A DNA stretch of 64,000 nucleotides from Pseudomonadota bacterium (GTDB lineage Bacteria > Pseudomonadota > Gammaproteobacteria > Burkholderiales > Sulfuricellaceae), in NCBI GenBank assembly GCA_021801705.1, contig JAJYXP010000009.1:1-64000 (forward strand). Direction: 5' to 3'. The position numbers and the translations under genes were made by a program. Below the pieces are notes generated by a model that was not told the DNA's origin, made no database searches, and saw nothing but the letters and a program-made list of their open reading frames with translations. This document shows positions 12,329 through 27,828 of this stretch, one piece after another; within the stretch, counting starts at the first letter, position 1; the number at the start of each line of letters is the position of its first letter.

Positions 12329-15300
12329 GCGATTAAACAGTCCCGCCCCGAAGGACGGGCGCTACCGCGATGGACGCCCGCTCTTTCCGTGATTTCGTTA
12401 CGTTTCAATCCTCGCCCGCCCCGAAGGACGGGCGCTACGTGGTGTTGCTACAGGCGTGGTTATAGGCGCGGGCGTTTCAATCCTCGCCCGCCCCGAAGGA
12501 CGGGCGCTACCGGATATTTTGGGTGCGATTACCGGTATCTGGACGTTTCAATCCTCGCCCGTCCCGAAGGACGGGCGCTACCTGCACGCCGGCTCCGGTA
12601 CCATCCGGGCTGACGATGTTTCAATCCTCGCCCGTCCCGAAGGACGGGCGCTACCTGGGTATTTCGTGGTACCTGATGTCGAGCGGCGGTTTCAATCCTC
12701 GCCCGTCCCGAAGGACGGGCGCTACTTCGACGGCGAGGACGATCATGTGCATCTCCTGGTGTTTCAATCCTCGCCCGTCCCGAAGGACGGGCGCTACGGC
12801 ACGCGTCACCCTTTGAAGGAACTCTGAATCATGTTTCAATCCTCGCCCGTCCCGAAGGACGGGCGCTACCTGGGTAGGTGTGCATCACGCCCAGGGCTGA
12901 TGACGTGTTTCAATCCTCGCCCGTCCCGAAGGACGGGCGCTACAGACCGTGCTTCGGGCCCTGGCTGGTCGATACGAGTTTCAATCCTCGCCCGTCCCGA
13001 AGGACGGGCGCTACCATCGCCCTGCGACTGCACCTGCGAAGTGATGTAGTTTCAATCCTCGCCCGTCCCGAAGGACGGGCGCTACAATGCCGTGTCTGTC
13101 TCGGCGTTTGCGCCGTTGATGTTTCAATCCTCGCCCGTCCCGAAGGACGGGCGCTACGTCAGGTTGCGCGAGAACACGATGCTTTTGCCGTTGTTTCAAT
13201 CCTCGCCCGTCCCGAAGGACGGGCGCTACTTGACGCAAGCGCCAAAAAACTTACATCATAAATGTTTCAATCCTCGCCCGTCCCGAAGGACGGGCGCTAC
13301 CATTTGATTTGGATCAATAGCGGGAGCGCGAGACTGTTTCAATCCTCGCCCGTCCCGAAGGACGGGCGCTACTGAATCCGATGCGCAAGGCAACCTTGGC
13401 GTAGCCGGTTTCAATCCTCGCCCGTCCCGAAGGACGGGCGCTACAGCATCGGCGAGCTGGCGCACCGGCTCAACATGCAGTTTCAATCCTCGCCCGTCCC
13501 GAAGGACGGGCGCTACCCGAGGCGCGGTAGGTTTGCGTTTGCATCCCATGAATTGTTTCAATCCTCGCCCGTCCCGAAGGACGGGCGCTACGGGTGGAGA
13601 TACACCCAAACTGATAGGTGCAGTGCGCGTTTCAATCCTCGCCCGTCCCGAAGGACGGGCGCTACTTCAGGCGGGGTGTTGGTCAGCACATGGTCAAACC
13701 AGTTTCAATCCTCGCCCGTCCCGAAGGACGGGCGCTACCAGGATCGACCACCATGGGCTGCGCGTGTCGCCGGGTTTCAATCCTCGCCCGTCCCGAAGGA
13801 CGGGCGCTACGCCGCCCGGGAGATTCTTGACCCATACCACCGGGACGTTTCAATCCTCGCCCGTCCCGAAGGACGGGCGCTACTTTCCCCAAATGATCGA
13901 TGGCCGTTGAGTATCTGGGTTTCAATCCTCGCCCGTCCCGAAGGACGGGCGCTACATCGGAGCTGAAGTTCCTCAAGGTACACAATACATGTTTCAATCC
14001 TCGCCCGTCCCGAAGGACGGGCGCTACATGCGGCAAATTTGCAGCCTATGGAGGCAAAAACGTTTCAATCCTCGCCCGTCCCGAAGGACGGGCGCTACTT
14101 GGGACTCGTGCCATGAAATACACTAGGACACTAGTTTCAATCCTCGCCCGTCCCGAAGGACGGGCGCTACTGGCGATGCGGTTGGCGTGGGAGGCGCCCT
14201 TTTCCTGTTTCAATCCTCGCCCGTCCCGAAGGACGGGCGCTACGTCGGACAGGTCGTAGAGCGGCGTCACGTTCGGGGTGTTTCAATCCTCGCCCGTCCC
14301 GAAGGACGGGCGCTACTGGCGTTGAATGCGTTTGTCAGTTTGATCAGAGCCGGTTTCAATCCTCGCCCGTCCCGAAGGACGGGCGCTACAATGCCGTGTC
14401 TGTCTCGGCGTTTGCGCCGTTGATGTTTCAATCCTCGCCCGTCCCGAAGGACGGGCGCTACAAGCTGGTCGAAGTTCGTCCCGGTGCCGATGACCTGTTT
14501 CAATCCTCGCCCGTCCCGAAGGACGGGCGCTACATCGCCACACCTCGGACGGCATGGCAGGAAACTTGTTTCAATCCTCGCCCGTCCCGAAGGACGGGCG
14601 CTACGCTGTAGGCGGGATTGGTGGTGTCCAGCGTAACGGTGTTTCAATCCTCGCCCGTCCCGAAGGACGGGCGCTACCCGCACGTTGGATAACCCAGATC
14701 GAATCGTCGGTTACGTTTCAATCCTCGCCCGTCCCGAAGGACGGGCGCTACGTTGATCGCGCTCTGTACTGCCGTGGCGAAGCTTGTTTCAATCCTCGCC
14801 CGTCCCGAAGGACGGGCGCTACTGGCGATGCGGTTGGCGTGGGAGGCGCCCTTTGTCTGTTTCAATCCTCGCCCGTCCCGAAGGACGGGCGCTACCGTGG
14901 CGCCGGCAGGCAGGCCGGTCACATGGACCTGTTTCAATCCTCGCCCGTCCCGAAGGACGGGCGCTACTCGGTTCTGGTGGAGTAGGAATTTGGTGCGGGA
15001 TGTTTCAATCCTCGCCCGTCCCGAAGGACGGGCGCTACTTTCCAGCTTCCTGCCGGGCTTGCCACTTCGCTATAGTTTCAATCCTCGCCCGTCCCGAAGG
15101 ACGGGCGCTACAAATGCACGCAATTGATGCGGACGCCGAAGAATGGGTTTCAATCCTCGCCCGTCCCGAAGGACGGGCGCTACAAATGCACGCAATTGAT
15201 GCGGACGCCGAAGAATGGGTTTCAATCCTCGCCCGTCCCGAAGGACGGGCGCTACGCCGGGATCGTCATCAATGGCGGCGGCCTCCCGGTGTTTCAATCC

Positions 15301-16330
15301 TCGCCCGTCCCGAAGGACGGGCGCTACTACCAACAGCGCCACGGTCGGCGAGCTTAAATCCGTTTCAATCCTCGCCCGTCCCGAAGGACGGGCGCTACGT
15401 TGATGGTGCGGTTGGTCTGCACCAGCAAGATCGGTTTCAATCCTCGCCCGTCCCGAAGGACGGGCGCTACGCGGAAACCAAGGCGGGAGCGCAGGCCATC
15501 GTGGTTTCAATCCTCGCCCGTCCCGAAGGACGGGCGCTACAGGATCAGCCAGCGATGAAGCGTCGTCGATGTTTTGTTTCAATCCTCGCCCGTCCCGAAG
15601 GACGGGCGCTACCCATGGCGAGCGGACGGGGAGACATGCTGCCGTCGTTTCAATCCTCGCCCGTCCCGAAGGACGGGCGCTACTGGCCATCTGGGCCTCC
15701 GCTTATGGGGTTGTTTTGTTTCAATCCTCGCCCGTCCCGAAGGACGGGCGCTACTGGTTTTTGCTGATGGTGGTCGTGATCTTATGCAGGTTTCAATCCT
15801 CGCCCGTCCCGAAGGACGGGCGCTACCAGGAAATAGAAGGTTCGCTGATATGCCATTGATTGGTTTCAATCCTCGCCCGTCCCGAAGGACGGGCGCTACG
15901 CGCTAACTTGGAGAGAACGATGGACGCAAAGACGTTTCAATCCTCGCCCGTCCCGAAGGACGGGCGCTACGCCGATCCCTTGCGCTTCCAGTTCCTTGAT
16001 AAGTGTTTCAATCCTCGCCCGTCCCGAAGGACGGGCGCTACAATGTAGGCCGGAGACAATAGAGTCAGCCCGGAGCGTTTCAATCCTCGCCCGTCCCGAA
16101 GGACGGGCGCTACAAAACCTACTCATTGGTTATTAAAAACATGTGGGATGTTTCAATCCTCGCCCGTCCCGAAGGACGGGCGCTACAGCAGGCGGCGTAA
16201 TTCACCCTCCCTGTCACCTGGAGTTTCAATCCTCGCCCGTCCCGAAGGACGGGCGCTACATGGCCGTACGGAGCCTAATCTTCGTTTGCGCAGGTTTCAA
16301 TCCTCGCCCGTCCCGAAGGACGGGCGCTAC
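12329..16330 (-). CRISPR. type I-C CRISPR array, 55 full repeats plus a decayed terminal repeat
   Basis: On the minus strand the 37-bp repeat starts GTAGCGCCCGTCC and ends GGATTGAAAC, the type I-C 3' end. It has a 9-bp stem around a CGAA/TTCG loop. I count 55 full copies, from 12402-12438 to 16294-16330, separated by spacers of about 33-37 nt. A 56th copy at 12329-12365 has lost its GTTTCAAT half. The two most distal full copies carry a C for T change in the stem. The leader is on the cas2 side, so the newest spacers lie near 16.3 kb. Several spacers are duplicated (13086/14390; 15112/15184; 14171/14823 nearly). Cas5c would process the transcript. Confidence 0.97.
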
Positions 16331-16508: not shown

Positions 16509-16799
16509 TCATGCCAGCAACGGTCCCTCGAAATCCACCGCACGAAAACAACCATATTCCCTGACATGTAGCCGCGTGGGTTCGGTGATGCGATAGATGC
16601 GCAAATTGTCCTCTTCTTTGTTGATTTCTTCCAGCAACCTTCTTTCCAGTTCCTCGAAGCGGACCAAATCCACTTGGCATTCGAAGACTGATTTCTGTAC
16701 CCGTTGGCCAACGCCTTCGCAAAGCTTTGCCACCCTGCGCAACCGCCGCCGGCCTTCGCGAGTTTCGGTAGAAACATCATAGGTGACGATGACAAGCAT
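16509..16799 (-). CDS. cas2: CRISPR-associated endoribonuclease Cas2
   Basis: The 96-residue protein starts [20 protein letters not shown], the conserved Cas2 first strand with its metal-binding Asp, and continues with [12 protein letters not shown]. Cas2 dimers bridge two Cas1 dimers in the spacer-integration complex. It begins 2 bp after the cas1 stop codon on the same strand and is the last gene before the leader. Length is normal for type I-C Cas2. Confidence 0.97.
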
Positions 16800-16801
16800 G
16801 G

Positions 16802-17839
16802 TTATTTGGCAAGGAACGGCAAATAACCTTCCATCTCGCCGCGCACCGTGCGGGCGAGTAGGCGCGCCTGAAGCAGGGGCACGAGGCCGAGAGGCATTTT
16901 ACTATCCAGCAGGGGATGGGTAATTTCCTCCTGCTTGCGTTCCTGATAAGCAACGATGACGGTTTTGCGAGCATCGTCTCCCAGTTGCACCGCGCCACCC
17001 TCCCGCTCGTGGAAATCTTTTTCGCTGATCTGCCCACGGTTCACAAGAGTAAGTGCCAGCCGGTCGGCGACGATAGCGCGGAATTCTTCCATGAGGTCGA
17101 GGGCTAGTGCCGCCCGTCCCGGACGCACGGCATGAAGGAAACCCAATTGAGGATCGAGGCCAACGGCCTCCAGCGCCGAGCGGCAGTCGTTCATGAGCAT
17201 GGAATAGAGGAAGGAGATCAGGGCGTTAAAACTATCGCGGGGCGGGCGGCGGGAGCGCCCGTTCATGGCGAAGGCAGGGCGTACATCCCGGCGCACCAGG
17301 GCTGGCATGGCCTCGAAATAGGTCTTGGCGGCTTCGCCTTCTACGCCGCGCAGGGCGTCGAGATCAGCCGCAACGGCAGCCGCGCGCAAAGAGGCGGCAA
17401 GATGCTCAGCGGCGGCGCGCAGGATTTGGCCGTCTTCATCTTCGTTGGCGTCCCGCGCACCGCGCTGCAAAACATAACGACTGTTCCTGATCTTGCCCGC
17501 GATGATGGCTCGGGCGGTTTCCAGGGCAAAGGCGGGGGTGTCCGCCTGCTGGTGTTGAGCACGCCGCAGCAGGATGTTGCCGCTCACCGCTCCTTCCAGC
17601 CGCGCCTTGAAGCGTCCGTGACCGTTCAGCAACACCAGGCTGATGCCTTCATCCGCGCAGCGGTGCATCAATGCCGGGGAAAGCATGATGTTGCCCAGGC
17701 AAACCACACTGCCCAGATGATGCAGCGGCACCTGCAACTTCTTTTCGTGCTCCACATCCACCCGCACCGTGTCGTTCTCCAGATGGAGATAGGAGTTCGG
17801 CGTCATGACATAAAGGGTATTGAGAATCTGGCGCGCCAT
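16802..17839 (-). CDS. cas1: CRISPR-associated integrase Cas1, type I-C
   Basis: The 345-residue metal-dependent integrase captures new spacers. The N-terminal beta domain begins [20 protein letters not shown]. The catalytic helical domain carries [12 protein letters not shown] (Glu), [19 protein letters not shown] (His and Asp region) and [13 protein letters not shown]. It starts directly after cas4 and runs into cas2, so the three adaptation genes form one unit. No frame damage is seen, which suggests adaptation could still work. Confidence 0.97.
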
Positions 17840-17841
17840 TT

Positions 17842-18468
17842 TTACGTTGCTCCCGGCTCAAACAAGGTTTCCAGCAAAACATGCTGCGTTGCACGCGCAG
17901 CGACAGCCTGCGGCTGGCAGATTTCCTTCAGCGAACACTCCTTGCAGCGCGCATCGTTGACCGGGGGCGGTAGCTTGCCGGACTCCATCATGGCGCGGAT
18001 AGCATTCACGGTTTCTTCCACCTTATCGCGCAATGCCTGAGTAATCGCCACCTCACGCCTGCGCCGCGAACCGTGGTGGTAAATCGCGCCGTGCGTGATG
18101 ACCTTGCCGGTCATCTCTTCCAGACACATCGCCTGCGCCGCAAGCTGGATGTCATCGTGGGATTTTTCACGCTTGGGGCCATGTTTATATTCCACCGGAT
18201 AAATATGCCCGTCTGGATGAAACTCCACCACATCGCACTTGCCAACCAGCCCCAGCCGTTCCGACCACACCGGCAATGCCCGCTCGGCACGCACACCCTC
18301 GAAGGTTTCAAACCCCGGATCATCCACCCGCTCATGTGCTGCGTTGCCGCGCATAGTGAAAACGTTTTCATCGAATGCCTGCTCAACATGAATCAGCGCG
18401 CACTGGCGCGGGCAATAGCTCCAGTGCTGAAGCGCGGAAAGCATGATGGGGTCGGCTGCTTCGTTCAT
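17842..18468 (-). CDS. cas4: CRISPR-associated exonuclease Cas4
   Basis: The 208-residue protein is a RecB-like nuclease that trims prespacers and helps select the PAM. Visible features are the first Fe-S cysteine region SYCPRQCALIH near residue 18, the active-site GKCDVVEFH and YPVEYKHGP (Asp, Glu and Lys), and the C-terminal CKECSLKEIC cluster cysteines. It is the first gene of the cas4-cas1-cas2 unit. Its start codon is 51 bp from, and divergent to, the antitoxin gene at 18520, so the adaptation genes need their own promoter here or readthrough across the module. Confidence 0.96.
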   Translation of the reverse strand: MNEAADPIMLSALQHWSYCPRQCALIHVEQAFDENVFTMRGNAAHERVDDPGFETFEGVRAERALPVWSERLGLVGKCDVVEFHPDGHIYPVEYKHGPKREKSHDDIQLAAQAMCLEEMTGKVITHGAIYHHGSRRRREVAITQALRDKVEETVNAIRAMMESGKLPPPVNDARCKECSLKEICQPQAVAARATQHVLLETLFEPGAT

Positions 18469-18519
18469 GGCAGTGGTGCTATCATATTACTTGCAACCTT
18501 TGAATTTAAGGAGGGCATC

Positions 18520-18768
18520 ATGGCAGCGATATTGAAAGAAATTGAAGACCAGGCGTTAAGTCTGACGCCCAAGGAGCGAGGCGAATTGATCCACCGCCTA
18601 ATCGTCAGCCTGGAAGGCGAAGCAGAAGACTCACCCGAAGCCATTGCCAAAGCATGGGATGAAGAAATCGCCCGCCGCGTAGCGGACATGGAAGCTGGCA
18701 AAACGGTCTGGATTCCAGCAGAAGAAGTTTTCGCTCGGCTCGACGCCATTATTGATAGCGCTCGCTGA
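18520..18768 (+). CDS. antitoxin, addiction-module component family
   Basis: The 82-residue protein begins MAAILKEIEDQALSLTPKER and has the short acidic helical pattern of the putative addiction-module component family (TIGR02574-like), for example ELIHRLIVSLEGEAEDSPE and AWDEEIARRVADMEAG. Such proteins neutralise RelE/ParE toxins. A strong AAGGAGGG ribosome-binding site lies upstream of ATG 18520. The toxin gene begins 3 bp after its stop. The module runs against the cas genes and splits the canonical type I-C order between cas7 and cas4. Confidence 0.88.
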   Translation: MAAILKEIEDQALSLTPKERGELIHRLIVSLEGEAEDSPEAIAKAWDEEIARRVADMEAGKTVWIPAEEVFARLDAIIDSAR

Positions 18769-18771
18769 TTG

Positions 18772-19065
18772 ATGCACGTCTCGTTCAATCCAGAGGCGCT
18801 CGCTGAAGCAGAAGAAGCGACCCATTGGTATCGAGATAATGGCGGATCATCGCCCAGCCGCGCTTTCACCCAGGAATTGCGGCGCGTCGTCCGTCTGGCC
18901 GCCGAGCAACCCGGTGTCGGCAATGCTGGACCGCATGGAACGGTTCGTCTGAATTTCAAGCGTTTCCCCTACACATTGGTTTTTCAAATTCAGGGCGCAT
19001 CCGTCAGAGTAATCGCGATTGCCCATCAAAGCCGCCGCCCTGGGTATTGGGTTGGGCGGCGTTGA
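18772..19065 (+). CDS. RelE/ParE-family toxin
   Basis: The 97-residue protein has the compact RelE/ParE pattern: VSFNPEALAEAEEATHWY at the N-terminus, then RAFTQELRRVVRLAAEQPGVG, RLNFKRFPYTLVFQI and VRVIAIAHQSRRPGYW at the end. The last motif is typical of plasmid-stabilisation ParE-like toxins that act on gyrase or on mRNA. The frame could start at TTG 18769, but ATG 18772 is the better choice. It is paired with the antitoxin just upstream. It converges with the HicB-like gene at 19103. Confidence 0.88.
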   Translation: MHVSFNPEALAEAEEATHWYRDNGGSSPSRAFTQELRRVVRLAAEQPGVGNAGPHGTVRLNFKRFPYTLVFQIQGASVRVIAIAHQSRRPGYWVGRR

Positions 19066-19102
19066 GATTTCAGCATTTTTTGATCAAGGTCATGCGGCAG
19101 TT

Positions 19103-19309
19103 TCATGCCGCGAGCACCTCTTCCCGCCCGATATGCAAGCGAATAACCTTGGGCATATCGCCTGCGTCGAAATGGCAATGCACCGCGTCCTGCACCATCT
19201 GGCGCAACTCCGGCAAGGTATCCGCCTCTGTAAGGATAGAATCGCCCAACGCCCGCGCGGTGTAACCGCCTTCGGGAGCTTGCTCCACGAGAAATAGAAC
19301 TTCACTCAT
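19103..19309 (-). CDS. HicB-like small protein, unpaired
   Basis: The 68-residue protein begins MSEVLFLVEQAPEGGYTARA and continues ILTEADTLPELRQMVQDAVHCHF. This is the partial RNase-H-like HicB fold often mis-annotated as a 2-oxoisovalerate dehydrogenase fragment. A GCGGAGG ribosome-binding site precedes ATG 19309. The gene starts 13 bp after the cas7 stop and in the same direction, so it is probably transcribed with the effector genes. No HicA partner is visible next to it. It may be an antitoxin remnant or a stand-alone regulator. Confidence 0.75.
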   Translation of the reverse strand: MSEVLFLVEQAPEGGYTARALGDSILTEADTLPELRQMVQDAVHCHFDAGDMPKVIRLHIGREEVLAA

Positions 19310-19322
19310 ATTACCTCCGCAT

Positions 19323-20204
19323 TCAACCCACTATACGTTGCAATGATACACCCGCAGGAATGTGGGCATCATCTACCGTCACGCTGTAGTCGGCAAAGTC
19401 ACGCGCTGGTTCCTCGGTGTTTTTCTTAGCTTGAATCAACTCAAAGAGCTTGTGCGCGGGGGCGTTGCCTAATTCACTGTCATGCTTGAAGACATACAGC
19501 CCGCGCGTGGACATTTCTCCTCTGGCGGCAGATCGGTCATGCTCGAACATCTGCGCCAGTGCCTGCCAGAGCAATTCCAGATCGTTCTCATCGAAGCCGG
19601 TTTGCTTGGCGAGGAATGAAGACACGAAGCCGTGGGCGGCATAAAGGCCGTAAGGCACAGTGAACTTGCGCCCCATGGTGCGGTTGTCGCCGGATTGTTT
19701 TTCGGCTTCGGCTTCGGTGGCAACCGCCATGCGGGTGATGGCATGTTCCTGCGCCACAATGGGGTCTATCGAGCGGGCGAAAGTCAGTTGCACCGGCCCG
19801 CGCACTTGGCCGCAATTCACGCCGGTGGACATGACTGCACCGAAGGTACGCACGTCGTAAAAATTCTTGCACATCCAGTCGCGTGCCTCGCCGACCTTGT
19901 CGCCGCCTTTACGCTTTTTGTCCTCGCCGCCCAGCAAGTCCGCCGCACCGATGCCCTGATAAGCCCGTTCGTGCTGCTTGTTGAGGATGGCCTTTTCCTT
20001 GACGTAAATCTCGAACGGCGGTTGCTCGCCCTTGACGATGCCGACGAAATTGCGCACCTTGCGCTTGAGGCTCACGTCCGTCACCAGGCCGCGCCCGGTT
20101 TCATCGTCCATACGCGGCATATTGCCGGCATCCGGGTCGCCGTTGGGATTGCCGTCCTTCACGTCAAACAAAAGTACAAAATCGTAGCGATTATTCAGAG
20201 TCAT
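19323..20204 (-). CDS. cas7: type I-C Cascade backbone protein Cas7
   Basis: The 293-residue protein (Csd2 type) polymerises along the crRNA to form the effector backbone. Typical motifs are [20 protein letters not shown] at the N-terminus, then [18 protein letters not shown] and [19 protein letters not shown]. The start ATG lies inside the last codons of cas8c (14-bp overlap) and has an AAGGAGACGAGC leader, so expression is coupled. Length is normal for the subtype. Confidence 0.97.
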
Positions 20205-21924
20205 GCTCGTCTCCTTGCGTCTTATAGGTGGAAGGGTGTTGTTTCTGGTGGTAGTAACCTACGGCAAAACTGCCTTGGTCGTTCAGTGACAAAACCGGTA
20301 GAAATGGCTTATCCGGCTCCAGTGCGCCCATGATGGCGCCGACCAGTTTCTCAAGATTAACCGCTCGTCCCGGCTTCTCTCGTCGGATTTTCGCCAAGTG
20401 CTTGGTGGCAAGGTTAATCAGTCTTGGAAAGGCTTTGCCAGGCGTGCCGGAAGCCGCGCCCCATAATGTGTTGCGGATAGTTGCCCGGATGCCCGGATTA
20501 GCCTCCTCCTGAATACGCTCCAGCACCGCGAACAGCCTGCCCAGCCGATAGGCGGGATTGATATTGTTTTCGTCCAGTGACACTTTGAGTTCCTCCTTCC
20601 CAGAGTAACGGTTAAGACACGCCTTGATGATGGCAGCGCGCGGATAAGTAACTTCCTGTTCGGCGCGGATGCGGCGAATGGCGCCGGCAAGCAGAGTTTG
20701 CGGATAGGGCAGCCCTTCGATCACGCTACGCATCAGTTCGCCCCCCAGATTGGGAGGGATGTTCTCAGCCTTGCCCAGCGTCGCCGTGGCGACCAGCAGG
20801 CGGAACAGCGTCAGCGTTTCCGGTTCGTGCGGGGCATGGGCAATGCGCAAATCATCGAAATGGCGGTGGATATTAACGGCCAGCTCACCCACCGTTTTGA
20901 CATGCCAAAAGCGCACGGCAATGCGGGCAGCGTTAGGCGCCAACCCCAGCACGTAAAAGCGCGTGCCGTCGTCCTCGAAGCTGTCGGCGCCGGTTCTCGG
21001 CGCAGCCAGCCATGCCGCGACAGCTTGCGTGCCGTGATCGGGGTCATCTTTGGACGCTTCGCTGAAAAAACCGGGAAACAGCTCTTCCATCGGATGGCCG
21101 GGCTTTTCCGCCCAGAACACGGTGGAAGCGTCGCCGACCTGGATGCGCTGTCGCGAACCTTTGGCCAACAGGTGATTGAGCGCGGTGGTGTAAGCAAAGG
21201 CGGCGCGCTTGCCCACCGGGGCGTTGCCACCCTGCACCTTGCCGTAGGAACTGAACGCATCCAGGTTGAACGAGACGATATTGGCTCCGGCTGTCTGAGC
21301 TCCCCACACCCCTTTTACCGAGGGATGCAGACGTTCGATCACATCGGTTTCGCCCGACACCAAGCACAGCCCGGTTGCGCCCGCGTCGCCCTGGCTGGCG
21401 GCGGTGAGCGTATCCACCACAGCCTCGCGCTCGCATACCGGGCAAATGTCCCCTTCCAGCCGGAAAGTCAGGTTGGCTCCGCTTTCCAGAATTTCCGGCC
21501 AGAGCGGATGTGCGAAAACCCGTTCGAAATCGCCGCACTCAAGAAACGCCAGCACTGCCTGGATACCGGCATCTAGTGGTGACGCAAAGCGGGCGCGTAG
21601 CGCCGAGATAAAAGCCGAATGCTGCTCGTGCACCCGTTCTGGTTTGCCCTTGGTATCCACGCCGAACATGTAGCCAGAGTTGTCCCACAGCAGATTGGCG
21701 GCCACACCGGAAGAGCGCTTGACCGTCTGCGGCACCAAAAAACTTTTCGCTGCCCGCTTCTTGCCCTCGCCTTCGCGGGTATCCTCCAGCGCGGCGAAAT
21801 CGCCCGTTGACGTCAGCACCACGACGAAAGGGATAGGTTTGTGCTCAAAACCCAGTGGTGCCAGATCGCTTCCCGGCAGCCGGGTTTTACGCTGGTAATA
21901 ATCGTTGAGCGCCTGCAAGATCAT
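20191..21924 (-). CDS. cas8c: type I-C large subunit Cas8c
   Basis: The 577-residue Csd1-family protein recognises the PAM and recruits Cas3. It begins [13 protein letters not shown], the standard start of this family. It then shows [32 protein letters not shown] and a [13 protein letters not shown] segment, and ends with the small-subunit-like helical region that type I-C translates as Cas11. ATG 21924 overlaps the cas5 stop as ATGA; the slightly longer upstream frame is rejected. Internal translation of a Cas11c small subunit is likely by family knowledge, but I could not fix its start. Confidence 0.96.
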
Positions 21925-22586
21925 CCTCGTATCTCCTCGCTCTCCCAACCCGGCACCGACAACACGCCGTTTTCCAGCCTGGCGTGGAAAAAACGCGGCT
22001 GCGGATCGGCGGCATGGGTGTAATCCAGATCATGCAGCATCCAGCCCAGGTCGCGGGTTTCCGAGATAGCGGCGGCTTGCGGTTGCGCGCTATCCACCAG
22101 CCGGAAATCACAGGCAAATTCGCGGCAGCCGAGATAGGGCTGGTTGACGCATTGGCCTTTTTCGGCGCGGCGCTCGAACATATCCATGAACTTGCCCGGT
22201 GTGTTGTTTTCGCCGGCATTGGGCAGTAACTCGAAATGGGCGTGGATGCGGTAGGCCACGTCGCGTAGGAACAGCCCGGCGCGCTGCTGGCGCTCGTCTT
22301 CCACGTTCAGGCCGAGCAGCCCCGCCCCCTTGTTCATGGCTTCCTGCGCGTTGCGCACCGAGGCCACCGCCCCCACCTCGTTGCGCCGCACCGAAATCCA
22401 TTTGATCGGCTTCAATACCTCGATCTTGCCGACATGCCAGCGGATGGCCGGCTTCCACAGGATGGACTCGAACACCGCACGCGCGGCAGAAGGCGTCATC
22501 ACGTCGTAGCTCACCCGCTCGACCTTCATTTCCGGGCGGGTGAAACAGGCGAAATCGCCGCTGACTTCAAGACAGTAAGTTTTCAA
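21921..22586 (-). CDS. cas5: type I-C crRNA-processing protein Cas5c, TTG start
   Basis: Cas5c replaces Cas6 in type I-C and cuts the repeat hairpin. The 221-residue product starts (M)KTYCLEVSGDFACFTRPEM, exactly where the family normally starts, if TTG 22586 is used. A GGGAGG ribosome-binding site sits 8 bases before that TTG. The longer ATG-started frame to 22709 would add 41 unrelated residues and is rejected. KVERVSYDVMTPSAARAVF and RWHVGKIEVLKPIKW are further family motifs. It overlaps cas8c by 4 bp and follows a possible small membrane-peptide ORF. Confidence 0.95.
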   Translation of the reverse strand: MKTYCLEVSGDFACFTRPEMKVERVSYDVMTPSAARAVFESILWKPAIRWHVGKIEVLKPIKWISVRRNEVGAVASVRNAQEAMNKGAGLLGLNVEDERQQRAGLFLRDVAYRIHAHFELLPNAGENNTPGKFMDMFERRAEKGQCVNQPYLGCREFACDFRLVDSAQPQAAAISETRDLGWMLHDLDYTHAADPQPRFFHARLENGVLSVPGWESEEIRG

Positions 22587-22588
22587 AT

Positions 22589-22714
22589 CTAATGCCTCCC
22601 ATACATTACGCCGACTAGCGCTACCAGCATCAGCAACCACATCGCCCAAAATCGTGACGTTGGCAATTGAAGCAACAATAGCCTGACCTCTCGCATCAAT
22701 CCCTTCCAATCCAT
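22589..22714 (-). CDS. possible 41-residue single-span membrane peptide upstream of cas5
   Basis: The frame starts MDWKGLMREVRLLLLQL at ATG 22714, contains a hydrophobic span FWAMWLLMLVALVGVM, and ends YGRH at a TAG two bases before the cas5 TTG. Its last codons contain the GGGAGG used by cas5, which would couple the two. The ribosome-binding site of its own (GGGTGG) is weak and I know of no homologous family. It may be only leader DNA. An upstream ATG at 22780 would extend it to 63 residues. Confidence 0.35.
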   Translation of the reverse strand: MDWKGLMREVRLLLLQLPTSRFWAMWLLMLVALVGVMYGRH

Positions 22715-22889: not shown

Positions 22890-25148
22890 CTACCCAATCA
22901 GCCCTGCTGGCGAAAGCGCGATACTATCCGTCAACAACCCAATGTCCTCGTCGTACAGTCCGGTAGTGCTCTGCACATACACCCCTGGAAATATTTCCCG
23001 AATATCCCGATTTGCCAGCAGCTTTTTGCATTCCCCCTCGCGGATATTGACGGTATAGCGTTGCAGCTTGCGCAGCAGTCCACGGCGCTCGTGCGGCTCC
23101 ATTACCGCCTTGGATTCGAGTATGGCAATCAGCCTGGGACTCTCGCCGTAACGCACGATCACGGCGGTCTGGCCTTCTTCGTCGATCAGGCGGAAGCGGC
23201 TGGCTGCGGCGCGGAAATTGAATTCGCCCTGGCGTGCGCCGGCACGGTTGTGCATGTCCAGCAGGCCGATGATGTCGGCCTTGTCCAGACTGTTGAGGCC
23301 AGCGTAATAAGTGCGGAAATAGGCTTCAAAGCGTTCGCGGGTAAGCGGTTCGCCTACCGTCAAGCGCATTACTTCCTGCCCGCTTTGCTGCGCCTTGCGT
23401 AGCAGTCCCGGCGCGGCGGGCTTGGGCGGCACGAACACCACCACGCGCCCCAAATCGGGTAATGCGCCTTCGCGATTGCAGCGCCCGGCGGCTTGGGCAA
23501 CGGCGTCCAGCCCGGCCAGGGCGCGATAAACCACGGGGAAATCCATGTCCACCCCGGCTTCCACCAATTGCGTGCTGACGACGCGCGTCGGAATGCGGTC
23601 TTTCAGCTTTTGCTTGATGTCGGCAATCACCCGGCTGCGATGCTGGCCGCACATCAGGGCCGAAAGATGGATCGTGTCCTTGGGCATCAAGCGGTGCAGT
23701 TCACGGCAATCGGCGCGGGAATTGACGATGCACAGCACCGACGGGTATTGCTGCAATTGCGCGGCGATGGTCTCCCAACTCTGGGGGGCGCTGAAATCGG
23801 CAGGCAGTTCGGTTTCCACCCGCTTGAGATCGGCGTAAAGCGCATCCGGGTCGTCCATCAATTCGCGCACACCGTTCAGGCCGGGGAATTTGGGGCGCGG
23901 CGAAAAGGCCGGTTGGGTGGCGGTGGACAGCACGAAGGTCACGCCGTAGTTGGGGCGCGCCAAGTCGTCCATCACATGCAGGATGGGCGCGAGAAACTCC
24001 GGTGGCAGCAATTGCGCCTCGTCCAGCACCGCCACGCTGTTGACGATGTTGTGCAGCTTGCGGCAACGGCTGCCACGGGCGGCGAACAGCGACTCGAAAA
24101 ATTGTACGTTGGTGGTCACAATGATGGGCGCATCCCAGTTTTCCGCCGCCAAGCGGCTGCGGCTGTCTTCCTTTTCGGGGTCGAGGTTACTGTGATGTTC
24201 GATGACGTTTTCTTTACCGAAAATATCGCGGAAAATTTCGGCGGTCTGCTCCAGAATGCTGGTGTAGGGGATGACGTAAATCACGCGCCGCTTGCCGTGA
24301 TGAATGGCATGGTTCAACGCAAACGCCATGCTGGAAAGCGTCTTGCCGCCGCCGGTGGGCACGGTAAGCGAGAACAGGCCGGAAGGCTGTTGCGCTTTTT
24401 CCCGGCACTGGCGCAGCACGTCAGCGCGGATGGCATTTACTGGAGAATTTTCGGCTTTGGCGGCCTTGTCCGCCATGTGCCGGTCGAAAAGCGGCAGCAA
24501 TGCTTGCAGCGGCGGGTAACCCGCACGTTTCGCGCCCTTGCTTTCGTCCATGAAGGCTTCGGTATCGAGAAAATCGGCATCCGTTACGCAGGAAAACAAC
24601 ATCCTGATCCACAACGCCAAGGAGCCTTGCGGCGGTAACGTGGTTGGGCGCGCTTTGCCGAGGATTTCTTGCGGCGGCGAAGCAGCCAAGGCTTCTTGCA
24701 GGTACCCCTTCCTTTTTCCTTCTTCCACTCGGCTGAACAACGAGGAGCGGCCTTCCTCCGCGCTGTTCCAGTCCGGCAAGCCTGCATGGTGGCCGGCAAT
24801 CAGGTAGGCCAAAATACGCCCTTGCAATCCAAACCTTTCCAGTGCATGAATCGCCCCCGCCGTGGAGTGGTCTACACGTCCAGCCGCGCCTTCGATATGG
24901 GCTTCCGGGTCGTATCCGCTGGCCTTTTTGATGTAGCCCTGAAATTTTTCGCGGAATTTCCCCAAGTCGTGCCACAACCCGGCGATGCTCGCCCAATCAC
25001 GTGAATCGAAATCGGCCGCGAAATCACCGGCTATTCGGGCTACTCCGTGAAGGTGCTCATCCAACAAGTGTTCGTGCCAGCCACCCGCACTATCTTGACG
25101 TACATGAGCCAGCACTCGATTTTCGTGTCTATTGTTCATGCCACCCAT
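22890..25148 (-). CDS. cas3: CRISPR-associated helicase-nuclease Cas3
   Basis: The 752-residue protein degrades DNA marked by Cascade. An N-terminal HD nuclease domain (SIAGLWHDLGKF, AGRVDHSTAGAIHAL, YLIAGHHAGLPDW) is fused to a superfamily 2 helicase with Walker A VPTGGGKTLSSMAFALNHA, the DEAQ form of box II (VLDEAQLLPPEFL) and QLVEAGVDMDFPVVYR. All expected motifs are present, so interference looks intact. ATG 25148 follows GGAGG by 7 bases. The upstream HIRAN and SEC-C genes run the same way and may share its transcript. Confidence 0.97.
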   Translation of the reverse strand: MGGMNNRHENRVLAHVRQDSAGGWHEHLLDEHLHGVARIAGDFAADFDSRDWASIAGLWHDLGKFREKFQGYIKKASGYDPEAHIEGAAGRVDHSTAGAIHALERFGLQGRILAYLIAGHHAGLPDWNSAEEGRSSLFSRVEEGKRKGYLQEALAASPPQEILGKARPTTLPPQGSLALWIRMLFSCVTDADFLDTEAFMDESKGAKRAGYPPLQALLPLFDRHMADKAAKAENSPVNAIRADVLRQCREKAQQPSGLFSLTVPTGGGKTLSSMAFALNHAIHHGKRRVIYVIPYTSILEQTAEIFRDIFGKENVIEHHSNLDPEKEDSRSRLAAENWDAPIIVTTNVQFFESLFAARGSRCRKLHNIVNSVAVLDEAQLLPPEFLAPILHVMDDLARPNYGVTFVLSTATQPAFSPRPKFPGLNGVRELMDDPDALYADLKRVETELPADFSAPQSWETIAAQLQQYPSVLCIVNSRADCRELHRLMPKDTIHLSALMCGQHRSRVIADIKQKLKDRIPTRVVSTQLVEAGVDMDFPVVYRALAGLDAVAQAAGRCNREGALPDLGRVVVFVPPKPAAPGLLRKAQQSGQEVMRLTVGEPLTRERFEAYFRTYYAGLNSLDKADIIGLLDMHNRAGARQGEFNFRAAASRFRLIDEEGQTAVIVRYGESPRLIAILESKAVMEPHERRGLLRKLQRYTVNIREGECKKLLANRDIREIFPGVYVQSTTGLYDEDIGLLTDSIALSPAGLIG

Positions 25149-25161
25149 GCTAACACCTCCA

Positions 25162-25178
25162 CTGGCTCACCACGTGAG
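25162..25178. repeat. short palindrome in the cas3 leader
   Basis: GGCTCACCACGTGAGCC is an inverted repeat between the SEC-C gene and the cas3 ribosome-binding site. It could be a weak attenuator or operator. Nothing else supports a role. Confidence 0.4.
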
Positions 25179-25195
25179 CCTGTGAAGATCAGCAG

Positions 25196-25294
25196 CTAAA
25201 AAATTCCTCCCTTTGCCTCATCCGCATCCAGGCAGCACTTCTTGTATTTGTTACCGCTGCCACATGACCAGGGAAGTTGGGCTAAGTCGGTCAT
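25196..25294 (-). CDS. 32-residue SEC-C motif micro-protein
   Basis: The short frame reads from ATG 25294 and contains SCGSGNKYKKCC, a SEC-C type zinc-binding motif that lacks the usual first Cys (commonly CPCGSG). An AGGAG site precedes it, and its ATG overlaps the HIRAN gene stop as ATGA, which argues for translation. SEC-C motifs usually sit at the tail of SecA or in small nucleic-acid or ribosome-associated proteins, so this could also be a broken C-terminal domain. It lies 47 bp upstream of cas3. Confidence 0.6.
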   Translation of the reverse strand: MTDLAQLPWSCGSGNKYKKCCLDADEAKGGIF

Positions 25295-25695
25295 GGCGCT
25301 TTCTCCTGAATGGGGTTGGCCATATCCAGATAGACCTCGAATTCCATCCGCTGCCAGGGGTTGCGGCTTTTCTTCAGGCGGGTGATGCGCGCTTCCGCTT
25401 TCGAGCCGCGATCCATGAAGCGCGCCAGCGCTTCGTTGTCGGCGCGGGGCACGTAGCCGAGCTTGTGGCCTTGCCATTCGACACGGACGGCGTTGGGGTC
25501 GTAGGAATTGCCGGGTTCACGAACGAGCTGAAGGGCGTCGCCCACTTTCATTTCGCTCCACAGTTGCTTGCCTTCGTAGTAGCGGAAACCGGCAAGTGGT
25601 GAATTTTGCAGCAGGATTTTGGCGTTTGTGTCGGCACTTGCCGGCGAGGCGAAAAAAACCACAAGCAACAGTGCCGCGATCAGTTCTAACCGCAT
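25291..25695 (-). CDS. exported HIRAN-domain protein
   Basis: The 134-residue product starts with a signal peptide (MRLELIAALLLVVFFASPASA). It carries a HIRAN domain from about residue 40 onward: LQLVREPGNSYDPNAVRVEW, then GHKLGYVPRADNEALARFM. HIRAN domains in HLTF-type proteins bind DNA 3' ends, and stand-alone bacterial versions are often tied to DNA repair or phage defence. The predicted export is odd for that role. The gene overlaps the SEC-C micro-gene by 4 bp and heads toward cas3. Confidence 0.82.
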   Translation of the reverse strand: MRLELIAALLLVVFFASPASADTNAKILLQNSPLAGFRYYEGKQLWSEMKVGDALQLVREPGNSYDPNAVRVEWQGHKLGYVPRADNEALARFMDRGSKAEARITRLKKSRNPWQRMEFEVYLDMANPIQEKAP

Positions 25696-25704
25696 AAACG
25701 CTTA

Positions 25705-25747
25705 CCCCTCTCCCCAGCCCTCTCCCGCAGGGGGAGAGGGGGTTTTA
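25705..25747. repeat. CCCTCTCCC/GGGAGAGGG hairpin repeat
   Basis: C-rich and G-rich arms around CGCAGG form a strong hairpin between the HIRAN gene and the downstream element. The same CCCTCTCCCGCA core occurs inside hoxY on the minus strand (about 30598-30738). Repeats of this design are widespread in proteobacterial genomes. Confidence 0.7.
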
Positions 25748-25792
25748 GCTGTGCTTCCCAACCTTTCCCGCGAGGGGATTTTTAGCGGCTGA

Positions 25793-25900
25793 CTAGTAGA
25801 GTCATGTTGAAACGTGAAACTGTAGGTCGGCATTCATGCCGACATGTCAGGCTGAAGCCTGACCTACAACCCCTTGCGATCCTTGTTGACTGACTACTAG
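25793..25900. mobile_element. 108-bp CTAG-flanked element of the TAGTC family
   Basis: The left end is CTAG-TAGAGTCA (one base change and an altered repeat) and the right end TGACTGACTA-CTAG. Both match the ends of the 145-bp element, but the interior is different: it holds the 46-bp double hairpin (25822-25867). The right-hand CTAG supplies the stop codon of the DinG-like helicase gene. Confidence 0.7.
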
Positions 25901-27828
25901 CCCGCCCGCTGTTCGAAGAACTTTTCCACTTCCGCCACTTCACGCGTCCGCTTCATCGGCGGCAGGCTTTGCCAGATACGACGGCCGTACTGCTTGGTCA
26001 GGAGGCGGGGATCGCAGATCATCAGCACGCCGCGGTCGGTTTCGTCGCGGATCAGCCGCCCCGCGCCCTGCTTCAGGGTGATGACGGCATGGGGAAGCTG
26101 GTATTCCATGAAGGCGTTGCGCCCTTCCTGGTTGATCTTCTCGATGCGCGCCGCCAGCACCGGATCGTCCGGCGGCGAGAACGGCAGCTTGTCGATGATT
26201 ACCAGGGACAGCGCCGAGCCGCGCACGTCCACGCCTTCCCAGAAGCTCTGGCTGGCCACCAGCACGGCGTTGCCGAGGCGGCGGAAGCGCTCCAGCAGTT
26301 CGGTGCGCGTGCCCTCCCCCTGCAGCAGGAGGGGAAATTCCAGCCCTTCTTTTTCGAATGCGTCCTTGAGCAGTTCATGCGCCTCACGCATGGCGCGCAA
26401 GCTGGTGCAGAGCAGGAATGCACGGCCGCCGCTGGCGCGGATCACCGGCAGCGCAGCCGCCACCACCGCCTCGGTATAGCCGCGGCTGTTCGGCTCCGGC
26501 ATGCCCTGAGGCGAGTAGAGCACCGCCTGGTTTTCGTAGTCGAACGGGCTGTCCCAAAATCCCGTGGCGGCTTCGAGCAGCCCCATCTGGCTCTGGTAGT
26601 GGCTGAAATCCTTTTTCACCGCGAGCGTGGCGGAGGTGAAAATCCAGGCGCGCGTATGATCGTCGATCTGCTTGCGGAAAATCTCGGCGATGGAAAGCGG
26701 CGTGGCGTTGAGCTGCATGGCGCGGTTGAACACTTCCACCCAGCGCACGCTGCCGTTGCTCTCCTCGTCCATCCAGCGCTTGAGTTGAGCCGCGAACTGT
26801 ATGCCGCGCTGCCAGCAGTTTTCCAGGCCGGGGCTGCGCTCGGCCTGGGATTCAAGCAGCTTGTTGAGCGCGTCGAGCTTGGCCTTGACTTCGAGCAAGG
26901 CATCCGCGAAGCCGCGTGTCCCCTGCGCCGCGGTCAGCGGCAGGCGCACGCTGTCCTGCGGGAAGACCAGGCGCAGGTCTCGCGTTGATTTCTCCAGCGC
27001 CGCGGCGCCCTCGGGCAGTTGGGCAAAATCCTTGGCCGTAACCATGGCCTCGCCATGGGCGTCGTGAGCCAGTTCCAGCAACTGCGAAGTGCTCAGGTTC
27101 TCGCCGAAGAACAGGCTGGCGGTGTCCGGCAACTGGTGCGCCTCGTCGAAAATCACCGTGTTGCTGGCGGGCAAAAGCTCGGCCACGCCCTCGTCGCGCA
27201 GCATCACGTCGGCGAAAAACAGGTGATGGTTGACCACGACCACCTCCGCACCTTGCGCGCGCTTGCGCGCTTCCATCACGAAGCAGTCCTTGTGGTAAGC
27301 GCATTCCTGGCCGAGGCAGTTTTCCCGCGTCGAGGTGACATATGACCAGATGCCGGCATTCTCCGGCACTTCGCTCAGGGCGCTCTTGTCGCCGCTGCCG
27401 CTCGACCTGGCAAAGCGCTCGATTTGCGCCAGGTAGCGGGAATCGTCGCGGGTCATGAAGCGCCCTTCGTTCTTGGCGCGCTCGAGGTGAAAATGGCAGA
27501 CGTAATTGGCGCGGCCCTTGAGCATCGCTATCGTCACCGGCACCTTCAGCGCATCGCGCATGGCCGGGATGTCGCGAAAAAAAAGCTGGTCCTGCAGAGT
27601 CTTGGTGCCGGTGGAAATAATCACCTTGCCGCCGGACAGCAGCGCCGGGGCGAGATAGGCATAAGTCTTGCCGGTTCCGGTGCCGGCCTCCGCCACCAGG
27701 ATTTCATGCTTTTCGATCGCCGCGGAGATGGCGCGCGCCATCTCCAGTTGCTGGGGGCGGGTGCGGTAATCCTTGAAGGCGCGGGCCAGCACGCCATCTT
27801 CGGCAAAAATAGTATCGAGATCGAACAT
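25897..27828 (-). CDS. dinG: DinG/YoaA-family ATP-dependent DNA helicase with Fe-S cluster
   Basis: The 643-residue XPD-like 5'-3' helicase has Walker A EAGTGTGKTYAYLAP, DEAH box TVIFDEAHQLPD, and helicase motif VI-like QGAGRLIRDETDRGVL. Cluster cysteines appear in YVCHFH, NCLGQEC and KDCFV. It unwinds R-loops or repair intermediates. The length fits YoaA better than full DinG. The stop TAG is the first three bases of a CTAG belonging to a mobile-like element, so the original C-terminus may have been altered by a few residues. The ribosome-binding site AAGGA precedes ATG 27828. Confidence 0.93.
   Translation of the reverse strand: MFDLDTIFAEDGVLARAFKDYRTRPQQLEMARAISAAIEKHEILVAEAGTGTGKTYAYLAPALLSGGKVIISTGTKTLQDQLFFRDIPAMRDALKVPVTIAMLKGRANYVCHFHLERAKNEGRFMTRDDSRYLAQIERFARSSGSGDKSALSEVPENAGIWSYVTSTRENCLGQECAYHKDCFVMEARKRAQGAEVVVVNHHLFFADVMLRDEGVAELLPASNTVIFDEAHQLPDTASLFFGENLSTSQLLELAHDAHGEAMVTAKDFAQLPEGAAALEKSTRDLRLVFPQDSVRLPLTAAQGTRGFADALLEVKAKLDALNKLLESQAERSPGLENCWQRGIQFAAQLKRWMDEESNGSVRWVEVFNRAMQLNATPLSIAEIFRKQIDDHTRAWIFTSATLAVKKDFSHYQSQMGLLEAATGFWDSPFDYENQAVLYSPQGMPEPNSRGYTEAVVAAALPVIRASGGRAFLLCTSLRAMREAHELLKDAFEKEGLEFPLLLQGEGTRTELLERFRRLGNAVLVASQSFWEGVDVRGSALSLVIIDKLPFSPPDDPVLAARIEKINQEGRNAFMEYQLPHAVITLKQGAGRLIRDETDRGVLMICDPRLLTKQYGRRIWQSLPPMKRTREVAEVEKFFEQRAG

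Follow-up and report, generated by a model that had tools for sequence, protein, structure and literature searches.

A yoaA-linked HIRAN gene beside a type I-C CRISPR-Cas island, and a sister clade of HIRAN genes with predicted twin-arginine leaders found ahead of CRISPR-Cas operons

The closest described counterparts of the regulatory part of this locus are BrxR and CapW, HTH-WYL-WCX proteins that, according to the accessible parts of the two reports, are encoded beside defence operons and are associated with inverted repeats separated by a 5-bp spacer (PMC9122601, PMC9122588). BrxR binds inverted repeats of 11 bp that are set 5 bp apart (PMC9122601, accessible part), and CRISPR-Cas was found among the BrxR neighbours in 21 of 210 systems (accessible parts of PMC9122601 and PMC9122588). 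A partner HIRAN gene, however, is absent from both main texts, and the box GGCTCA-N5-TGAGCC was not seen in the accessible parts of their descriptions (PMC9122601, PMC9122588). Sll7009, which is cited in PMC9122601 as the WYL repressor of a type I-D locus, is a further likeness, but the accessible part of that paper states that it has no significant similarity to BrxR, and HIRAN goes unmentioned there.

As for HIRAN itself, the bacterial domains of HipN and HipL, which belong to HipA kinase modules, are predicted to bind DNA ends in a toxin-antitoxin context, but they are fused to HipS or kinase domains, and neither a leader nor a CRISPR link was seen in the accessible part of that work (PMC8262856). 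The HIRAN domain of HLTF (PDB 4s0n, 4xzf, 6kcs, 5bnh), in which Y72 and Y93 hold a dinucleotide (PMC4666394, accessible part), is similar in both fold and sequence, but it is human and forms part of a DNA translocase, whereas the bacterial HIRANs considered here are short and have leaders. The closest solved stand-alone HIRAN is lp_0118 of Lactobacillus plantarum (PDB 3k2y), which is labelled uncharacterised. In the literature searched, no report linking HIRAN with cas operons was found, a mention in a CRISPR-neighbourhood survey being possible, and a search combining HIRAN with twin-arginine (Tat) found none.

The window, i.e., the whole analysed stretch of 64,000 nucleotides, carries a type I-C gene set (cas3, cas5c, cas8c, cas7c, cas4, cas1c, and an array), with a HIRAN gene and a small SEC-C ORF ahead of cas3 and yoaA directly upstream of the HIRAN gene. 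The features are the following:

25897-27828, minus strand: yoaA, DNA repair helicase (NCBIfam NF053712, YoaA, 912 bits)
25291-25695, minus strand: HIRAN gene, 134 aa, class-1 side of the HIRAN tree (Pfam HIRAN, E 9.4e-24)
25633-25695, minus strand: predicted Sec-type leader of the HIRAN protein, first 21 residues (judged by eye)
25291-25323, minus strand: extra C-terminal tail of the HIRAN protein, MANPIQEKAP and stop (3'-end comparison within the genus)
25196-25294, minus strand: SEC-C ORF, 32 codons, without the first Cys (Pfam SEC-C, 21.9 bits)
25164-25180, strandless: palindrome GGCTCA-N5-TGAGCC, putative WYL operator in the gap ahead of cas3
22890-25148, minus strand: cas3, first gene of the type I-C operon (Cas3 HD and helicase models)
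16802-22709, minus strand: cas5c, cas8c, cas7c, cas4, cas1c (profile models)
12402-16330, minus strand: CRISPR array, 55 repeats (Rfam CRISPR-DR9)

A 96-aa ORF at 16509-16799 is probably cas2. The listed cas5 ORF (21921-22709, minus strand) is about 40 N-terminal residues longer than the Cas5 models, so that its real start probably lies further in. On the opposite strand, between cas7 and cas4, an ORF at 18769-19065 (plus strand) was recognised by eye as a ParE/RelE-type toxin gene; other toxin-antitoxin-like ORFs occupy the corresponding cas7-cas4 place at locus L115 of genome G229.

In the preliminary description of this region, the HIRAN protein and a SEC-C micro-protein were proposed to form a functional trio with cas3. 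Its geometry is accurate: the ATGA at 25291-25294 is common to the HIRAN stop and the SEC-C start, both genes point into cas3, and 47 bp separate the SEC-C stop from the cas3 start (25148). The signal peptide (a Sec-type leader, predicted by eye) and the missing first cysteine of SEC-C (the Pfam match covers positions 7-18 of 19) were likewise borne out. The adjacent yoaA and the 17-bp palindrome inside the 47-bp gap were absent from that description, and the trio itself is not supported at the window, since the HIRAN gene is yoaA-linked and present without cas, the SEC-C ORF shows no visible constraint, and a putative operator precedes cas3.

The HIRAN domain (PF08797) comprises residues 30-124 of the protein (83.5 bits with the Pfam profile, cut-off 24.7) and is preceded by the Sec-type leader MRLELIAALLLVVFFASPASA-D, which was read by eye and not with a predictor. 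An AlphaFold model built from 34 sequences reached a pLDDT of 90.6, and Foldseek matched this model to 3k2y (E 8.8e-9) and to the HLTF HIRAN bound to DNA (E 7.8e-7). According to the printed alignment, with residues counted by hand, HLTF Y72 and Y93 correspond to Y39 and Y65 of the window protein; the pocket is conserved among the 34 HIRAN sequences, with Y39 nearly invariant and N63 invariant, while Y65 is variable. The earlier idea that HIRAN domains recognise DNA ends is favoured insofar as the modelled fold matches a DNA-end-binding domain, and bacterial HIRANs may bind DNA ends. Comparison with the related genome G002 revealed 23.5 synonymous and 5.5 nonsynonymous changes in the HIRAN body (dN/dS 0.05), and one synonymous and four nonsynonymous changes in the C-terminal tail. 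Among the 11 genus genomes, this tail occurs only in the window and in G002, and it is likely the junction with foreign DNA.

HIRAN of the window kind was found in 34 of 61 relatives, the own genome counted. Within the window genus, 11 genomes possess it (G000-G008, G010, G011) and G009 does not, and the adjacency of yoaA and hiran was observed in 10 of the 11, with the exception of G004. In the latter, the first HIRAN gene is located not beside yoaA but close to a gene that by eye looks like uvrB. Four of the 11 genomes (G003, G005, G010, G011) have no cas genes between hiran and tsaB, the latter following hiran directly in G005 and G011. In the sister genus, tsaB comes at once after hiran in all eight fetched genomes (G012, G014, G016-G021), and cas genes follow hiran in none of them; tsaB was not found within the window. 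Judged by these gene orders, yoaA-hiran is an old chromosomal unit that does not depend on the cas island. The possibility that the window HIRAN arrived together with the cas island was rejected, as this HIRAN belongs to class 1 and is in place without cas in relatives.

Cas genes within 2 kb after hiran are present in six of the 11 genus genomes, G002 being a seventh by eye, and their type varies. They are of type I-C in the window and I-E in G001. In G004, the first hiran is followed by a WYL gene, a second HIRAN, and a type I-C set, and in G006 by a WYL fragment and a Cas3 matching a I-E type model. G007 has toxin-antitoxin-like ORFs (by eye) and then Cas5, Cas7, Cas3, Cas4, and Cas1, a set that resembles I-C and whose Cas8 was named by no model. 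In G008, a WYL fragment, a type I-C set, an array, and then tsaB follow, so that the island sits between hiran and tsaB. The downstream region of G002, read by eye, shows a remnant, some 13 codons long and similar to the window cas3 start, and then a different ORF start, the 55-codon ORF at the contig end resembling a cas3 start.

The SEC-C ORF scores 21.9 bits with Pfam SEC-C (PF02810), whose cut-off is 20.4, and the match is limited to profile positions 7-18 of 19. The Cys and His residues of SEC-C are metal-binding ligands; the full set is lacking here, as the first Cys is replaced in both carriers, the window and G002. Among 61 genomes, the full-length ORF occurs in two (G000 and G002), and the ATGA overlap with HIRAN is found in one other genome, G002. 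A protein search with E up to 1 gave matches in 52 of the 61 genomes, all of which, bar G000 and G002, are motif cores in other frames; a DNA search gave matches in 13 of 61, 11 of them over no more than 48 bases around the motif core; and a regular-expression search of the loci returned the window and G002 only. Between these two ORFs there are seven nonsynonymous changes and one synonymous change, a small sample in which constraint is not visible. The 3' end of the ORF together with the gap aligns with the cas leader of G140, a member of another family (score 88 versus a maximum of 27 in 200 shuffles), and this stretch therefore belongs to the cas leader; the counterpart ORF in G140 has 17 codons and is without the SEC-C core. 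Two candidate interpretations were given up: a conserved micro-protein, because the ORF is full-length in two of 61 genomes with no visible constraint, and an N-terminal remnant of a long SEC-C protein like that of G229, because the 3' end is common to the G140 leader without a SEC-C core. The window SEC-C ORF is probably a relic, and its ATGA overlap with HIRAN looks like a by-product.

The gap palindrome GGCTCACGTGGTGAGCC (25164-25180) is the sole exact match of its pattern in the window; with up to two mismatches, five matches were obtained versus a chance mean of 4.15, and hence only the exact match counts. The palindrome is probably the operator of a WYL regulator, and, as this putative operator separates SEC-C from cas3, the latter probably begins a unit of its own. 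A consensus scan of 24900-26000 detected no promoter-like site, and the same scan detected no terminator-like site on the minus strand of the 47-bp gap; transcription may read through from hiran into cas3. These data bear on the proposal that hiran, SEC-C, and cas3 constitute a single operon with translational coupling, whose exported HIRAN and SEC-C micro-protein assist Cas3 in the window genome. The common strand, the ATGA overlap, and the short gap agree with it, as do the cas linkage of a sister HIRAN clade and the arrangement in G002, which keeps HIRAN and SEC-C ahead of a seemingly different cas3 start (by eye). Nevertheless, a putative operator divides SEC-C from cas3, HIRAN is conserved without cas, and the SEC-C ORF is unconstrained and without its first Cys, which makes a coupled operon very unlikely. 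According to the preliminary description, finding the HIRAN/SEC-C pair mainly in loci without cas genes would speak against the trio; this is the case for HIRAN alone, whereas the pair occurs in two genomes and is followed by cas3 in both (for G002, this was judged by eye at the end of a contig).

A link between HIRAN and CRISPR-Cas, which is not supported at the window, was found in the sister clade, whose members immediately precede cas3, cas1, or cas12a in numerous genomes. Screening of 300 genomes of the order with the Pfam HIRAN profile revealed 102 genomes with HIRAN and 110 places, 107 of them over the cut-off; all 110 neighbourhoods, the window itself being one, were retrieved over roughly 8 kb or as far as the contig reached, and eight of 109 loci showed neither a HIRAN match by tblastn nor a cas match. 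Seven short HIRANs of this sample belong to the Tat clade (G229, G057, G035, G032:C48, G140:C9, G150, G075:C16). Six of these seven are followed by cas genes on the same strand at a distance of up to 5 kb, versus two of the 100 other HIRANs (Fisher p 1.07e-7), the two being those of the window and G007. With three long fusion-type clade members included, the ratio is 6/10 versus 2/97 (p 3.0e-6), and with the window's own family left out it is 6/7 versus 0/91 (p 6.7e-9). In the same 300 genomes, Cas8c was present in 26 and Cas1 in 114.

It could be argued that CRISPR islands of the window genus use the gap after yoaA-hiran as a landing place and that HIRAN is unrelated to CRISPR anywhere. Different cas types do occupy this one place in six of 11 genus genomes, and the class-1 HIRANs of the order sample are cas-adjacent solely in the window genus. 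Such a coincidence is nonetheless quite improbable, because it accounts neither for the occurrence of Tat-clade HIRANs ahead of cas operons across many families nor for the putative operator that is shared.

Two further samples were examined, one of the class (a profile of eight HIRANs matched in 31 of 369 genomes) and one of the phylum (the profile matched in 19 of 378 genomes when a stricter limit was set, neighbourhoods of about 1.5 kb). As seven of the eight profile HIRANs are cas-linked, these two samples are enriched for the Tat clade, and only the order sample is neutral. In the three samples together, a WYL gene lies immediately upstream of 22 HIRANs, one of which (G548) is cut by the contig end, and 17 of the 21 testable pairs have CRISPR genes within 5 kb. 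The WYL-HIRAN pair precedes type I-C genes in G229, G503, G902, and G858, type I-F in G035, G378, G644, G409, G907, and G912, type I-G in G150, G606, and G367, type I-E in G345 and G434, and Cas12a in G829, while G494 has a Cas5 match at the contig end; the pairs of G075, G666, G534, and G822 are without cas. Curated models, which covered part of the cas genes, identified Cas12a (G829), Cas3g (G606, G150), Cas3 (G345, G434, G503, G902), and Cas1f (G035, G378, G409). The other cas calls were made by tblastn with references that come partly from the same loci and cover I-C, I-E, I-F, I-G, and a few relatives, together with Cas1/Cas8c positions. The gap between HIRAN and the cas genes is frequently below 100 bp, and some of the genes overlap. 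HIRAN stands before cas without a visible WYL gene in G057, G032, G140, G616, G926, and one of the two G013 loci. Broken copies exist among the cas-linked HIRAN genes (G057, G035, G229), so the gene is dispensable.

The leaders of this clade were judged by eye, and TAT_signal matches are below the cut-off (16.4 bits for one Tat-type leader, Pfam cut-off 22.7) or absent from the other leaders scanned with Pfam, for which reason export of the Tat-type HIRANs, like that of the window HIRAN, is a prediction. As regards the SEC-C motif beside HIRAN and cas, which the preliminary description had singled out, full-length zinc-motif proteins do occur in the Tat-HIRAN module, namely a SEC-C protein of 482 aa (G229) and SWIM proteins of 592 aa (G150) and 165 aa (G345), but three loci are too few for a rule.

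Other settings of related HIRANs were also noted. In G757 (L351), G685 (L352), and G723 (L359), a Tat-clade-related HIRAN directly follows an hsdS-like gene, with a match to the type I restriction specificity subunit below the model cut-off; the leaders of the G757 and G723 proteins look KR-type by eye. At L204, L210, L211, and L256 (G068, G040, G114, and G436, respectively), proteins some 700 aa long that end in a HIRAN domain are encoded beside a convergent WYL gene; at the first three loci, the box GGCTCA-N5-TGAGCC is close by and the HIRAN clusters with the Tat clade. These long proteins are possibly another WYL-controlled defence gene. Searches for Tat-clade HIRANs in viral contigs gave 47 stretches fitting the pattern, none of which was confirmed; among plasmids, one record with 35% identity was found, and among phages 22 records, none of which reached 80% query coverage.

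On a tree built from 146 HIRAN rows, two changes suffice for the 26 rows labelled Tat versus a shuffled mean of 24.3, and the starred branch (98/86) has 25 of these 26 together with three long proteins on one side; the tree has few columns for many rows, many of its inner forks are unresolved, and the label had been set by leader and neighbourhood prior to the tree, two labelled rows (L116, L119) being without an RR or KR pair. Six loci (L264, L266, L352, L359, L360, L365) stand outside the tree. The window HIRAN falls deep in the other side, class 1, among its genus. The exceptional Tat-labelled protein, L121 (G013, 4258-4644, minus strand), is WYL-linked and cas-linked and has a Tat leader, but its body lies outside the Tat clade on the class-1 side, on a long branch at the base where its placement is unsure; it is possibly a recombinant of the two HIRAN classes. 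Compared with the proposed WYL-Tat-HIRAN module, the window has neither a Tat-clade HIRAN before cas nor a WYL gene directly upstream; it has the putative operator, but before cas3 instead of before HIRAN.

In 2.9 Mb of loci fetched for HIRAN, SEC-C, or Cas8c (overlaps counted repeatedly), 18 distinct exact sites of the palindrome were found, and 12 of them immediately precede the start of a HIRAN or cas gene: four lie ahead of cas3 (window, G002, G006, G008), six ahead of HIRAN (G004, G229, G032, G013, G150, G367), and two ahead of HIRANs without cas, outside the Tat set (G659, G534). The remaining six are near WYL genes and long HIRAN proteins (G068, G040, G114). With up to two mismatches and within 250 bp upstream, the palindrome is present before 11 of 21 Tat-type HIRANs versus none of 114 other rows, which have approximate gene starts, include a few copies of one locus, and leave out L255 and L259, both of which have it. 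Its distance from the Tat-type HIRAN is 42-64 bp, and 42-48 bp in nine of the eleven cases; before the other 10 of 21, a palindrome of such sequence is missing.

Summing the listed counts over 80 relatives gives 111 exact sites, spread over 48 genomes, versus 14 sites for the reversed pattern; G004 alone accounts for 21 sites, leaving 90 sites in 79 genomes, and most of the 111 sites have no assigned WYL or defence gene. In G004, the version GGCTCACGTAGTGAGCC is repeated 18 times over many contigs, with five copies no more than 70 bp away from a contig start, as if it were part of a multi-copy mobile element. An exact site lies within 200 bp of a WYL match (E < ~2e-50) at no fewer than 14 of 48 WYL places, in five of these 14 beyond the 3' end of the WYL gene.

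The window genome contains five exact sites. Besides that in the gap, one is located 27 bp upstream of a WYL gene on contig C24, one before a DinD-like gene on contig C3 (L318), one near a DUF6471 gene on contig C51 (L344), and one inside an ORF judged DUF433-like. The DinD-like gene scored 215.8 bits with the model of DNA damage-inducible protein D, below the cut-off of 242; it and the DUF6471 gene are possible members of a WYL regulon. No WYL match was found within the window, but one is present elsewhere in the genome, on C24. The C24 protein matches WYL and WCX over the cut-off and HTH_11 below it (20.9 vs 25), and is 44% identical to a cas-linked WYL homologue. On sequence grounds, it probably binds the palindrome and controls cas3 in trans.

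The islands of the window genus could also have lost a second HIRAN from a WYL-HIRAN2-cas arrangement if the chromosomal class-1 HIRAN, predicted to be exported, does the same job. G004 keeps both HIRANs, G006 and G008 keep WYL remnants with no second HIRAN between them and cas3, and the cas-linked L121 of G013 combines a Tat leader with a body on the class-1 side, unsure as its place on a long branch is. However, the genomes concerned are few, class 1 is conserved without cas, and decay of unneeded genes gives the same pattern, so that such recruitment of the chromosomal HIRAN is considered unlikely.

The reading we regard as probable is that the window is a junction between the old yoaA-hiran unit and a probably WYL-controlled type I-C island, and that elsewhere a WYL-Tat-HIRAN module heads CRISPR operons. 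One side of this junction would be the chromosomal yoaA-hiran unit, elsewhere followed by tsaB, and the other the type I-C cas island with a leader that contains the relic SEC-C ORF and the 17-bp palindromic operator. The C24 WYL regulator, of the BrxR/CapW kind, would control cas3 in trans from the gap operator; elsewhere, the operator would act from 42-64 bp ahead of a mostly Tat-leader HIRAN, usually behind its own WYL gene, with HIRAN heading the cas genes. The WYL protein would bind the operator and repress the operon until a DNA-damage or infection signal releases it, whereupon the CRISPR machinery and a folded, exported HIRAN would be produced together, and HIRAN would hold free DNA ends outside the cytoplasm. 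WYL-controlled co-expression of CRISPR-Cas and an exported DNA-end binder is the best fit to the data; the sequences themselves show the gene orders, the clades, the palindrome pattern, and the conserved pocket, and the main steps of the mechanism (operator binding by WYL, which way the control runs, the triggering signal, export, DNA binding, and any consequence for immunity) rest on inference. A more speculative extension, which we hold to be possible but doubtful, is that the Tat-exported HIRAN, switched by WYL together with CRISPR-Cas, acts at the envelope on incoming DNA ends of phage, plasmid, or transforming DNA, the module being exchanged freely among I-C, I-E, I-F, I-G, and Cas12a systems.

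The gene orders and the tree point to the Tat-clade HIRAN as an undescribed CRISPR accessory gene. If this is true, a conserved gene pair heads several unrelated CRISPR-Cas types, roughly half of the time together with a single common DNA control box, and one member of the pair is predicted to act outside the cytoplasm; to our knowledge, no CRISPR part is known to act there. The control box would make the regulon readable from sequence, lying in the window genome beside the WYL gene itself and before the dinD-like gene, and it would provide a testable handle on the timing of CRISPR operon expression.
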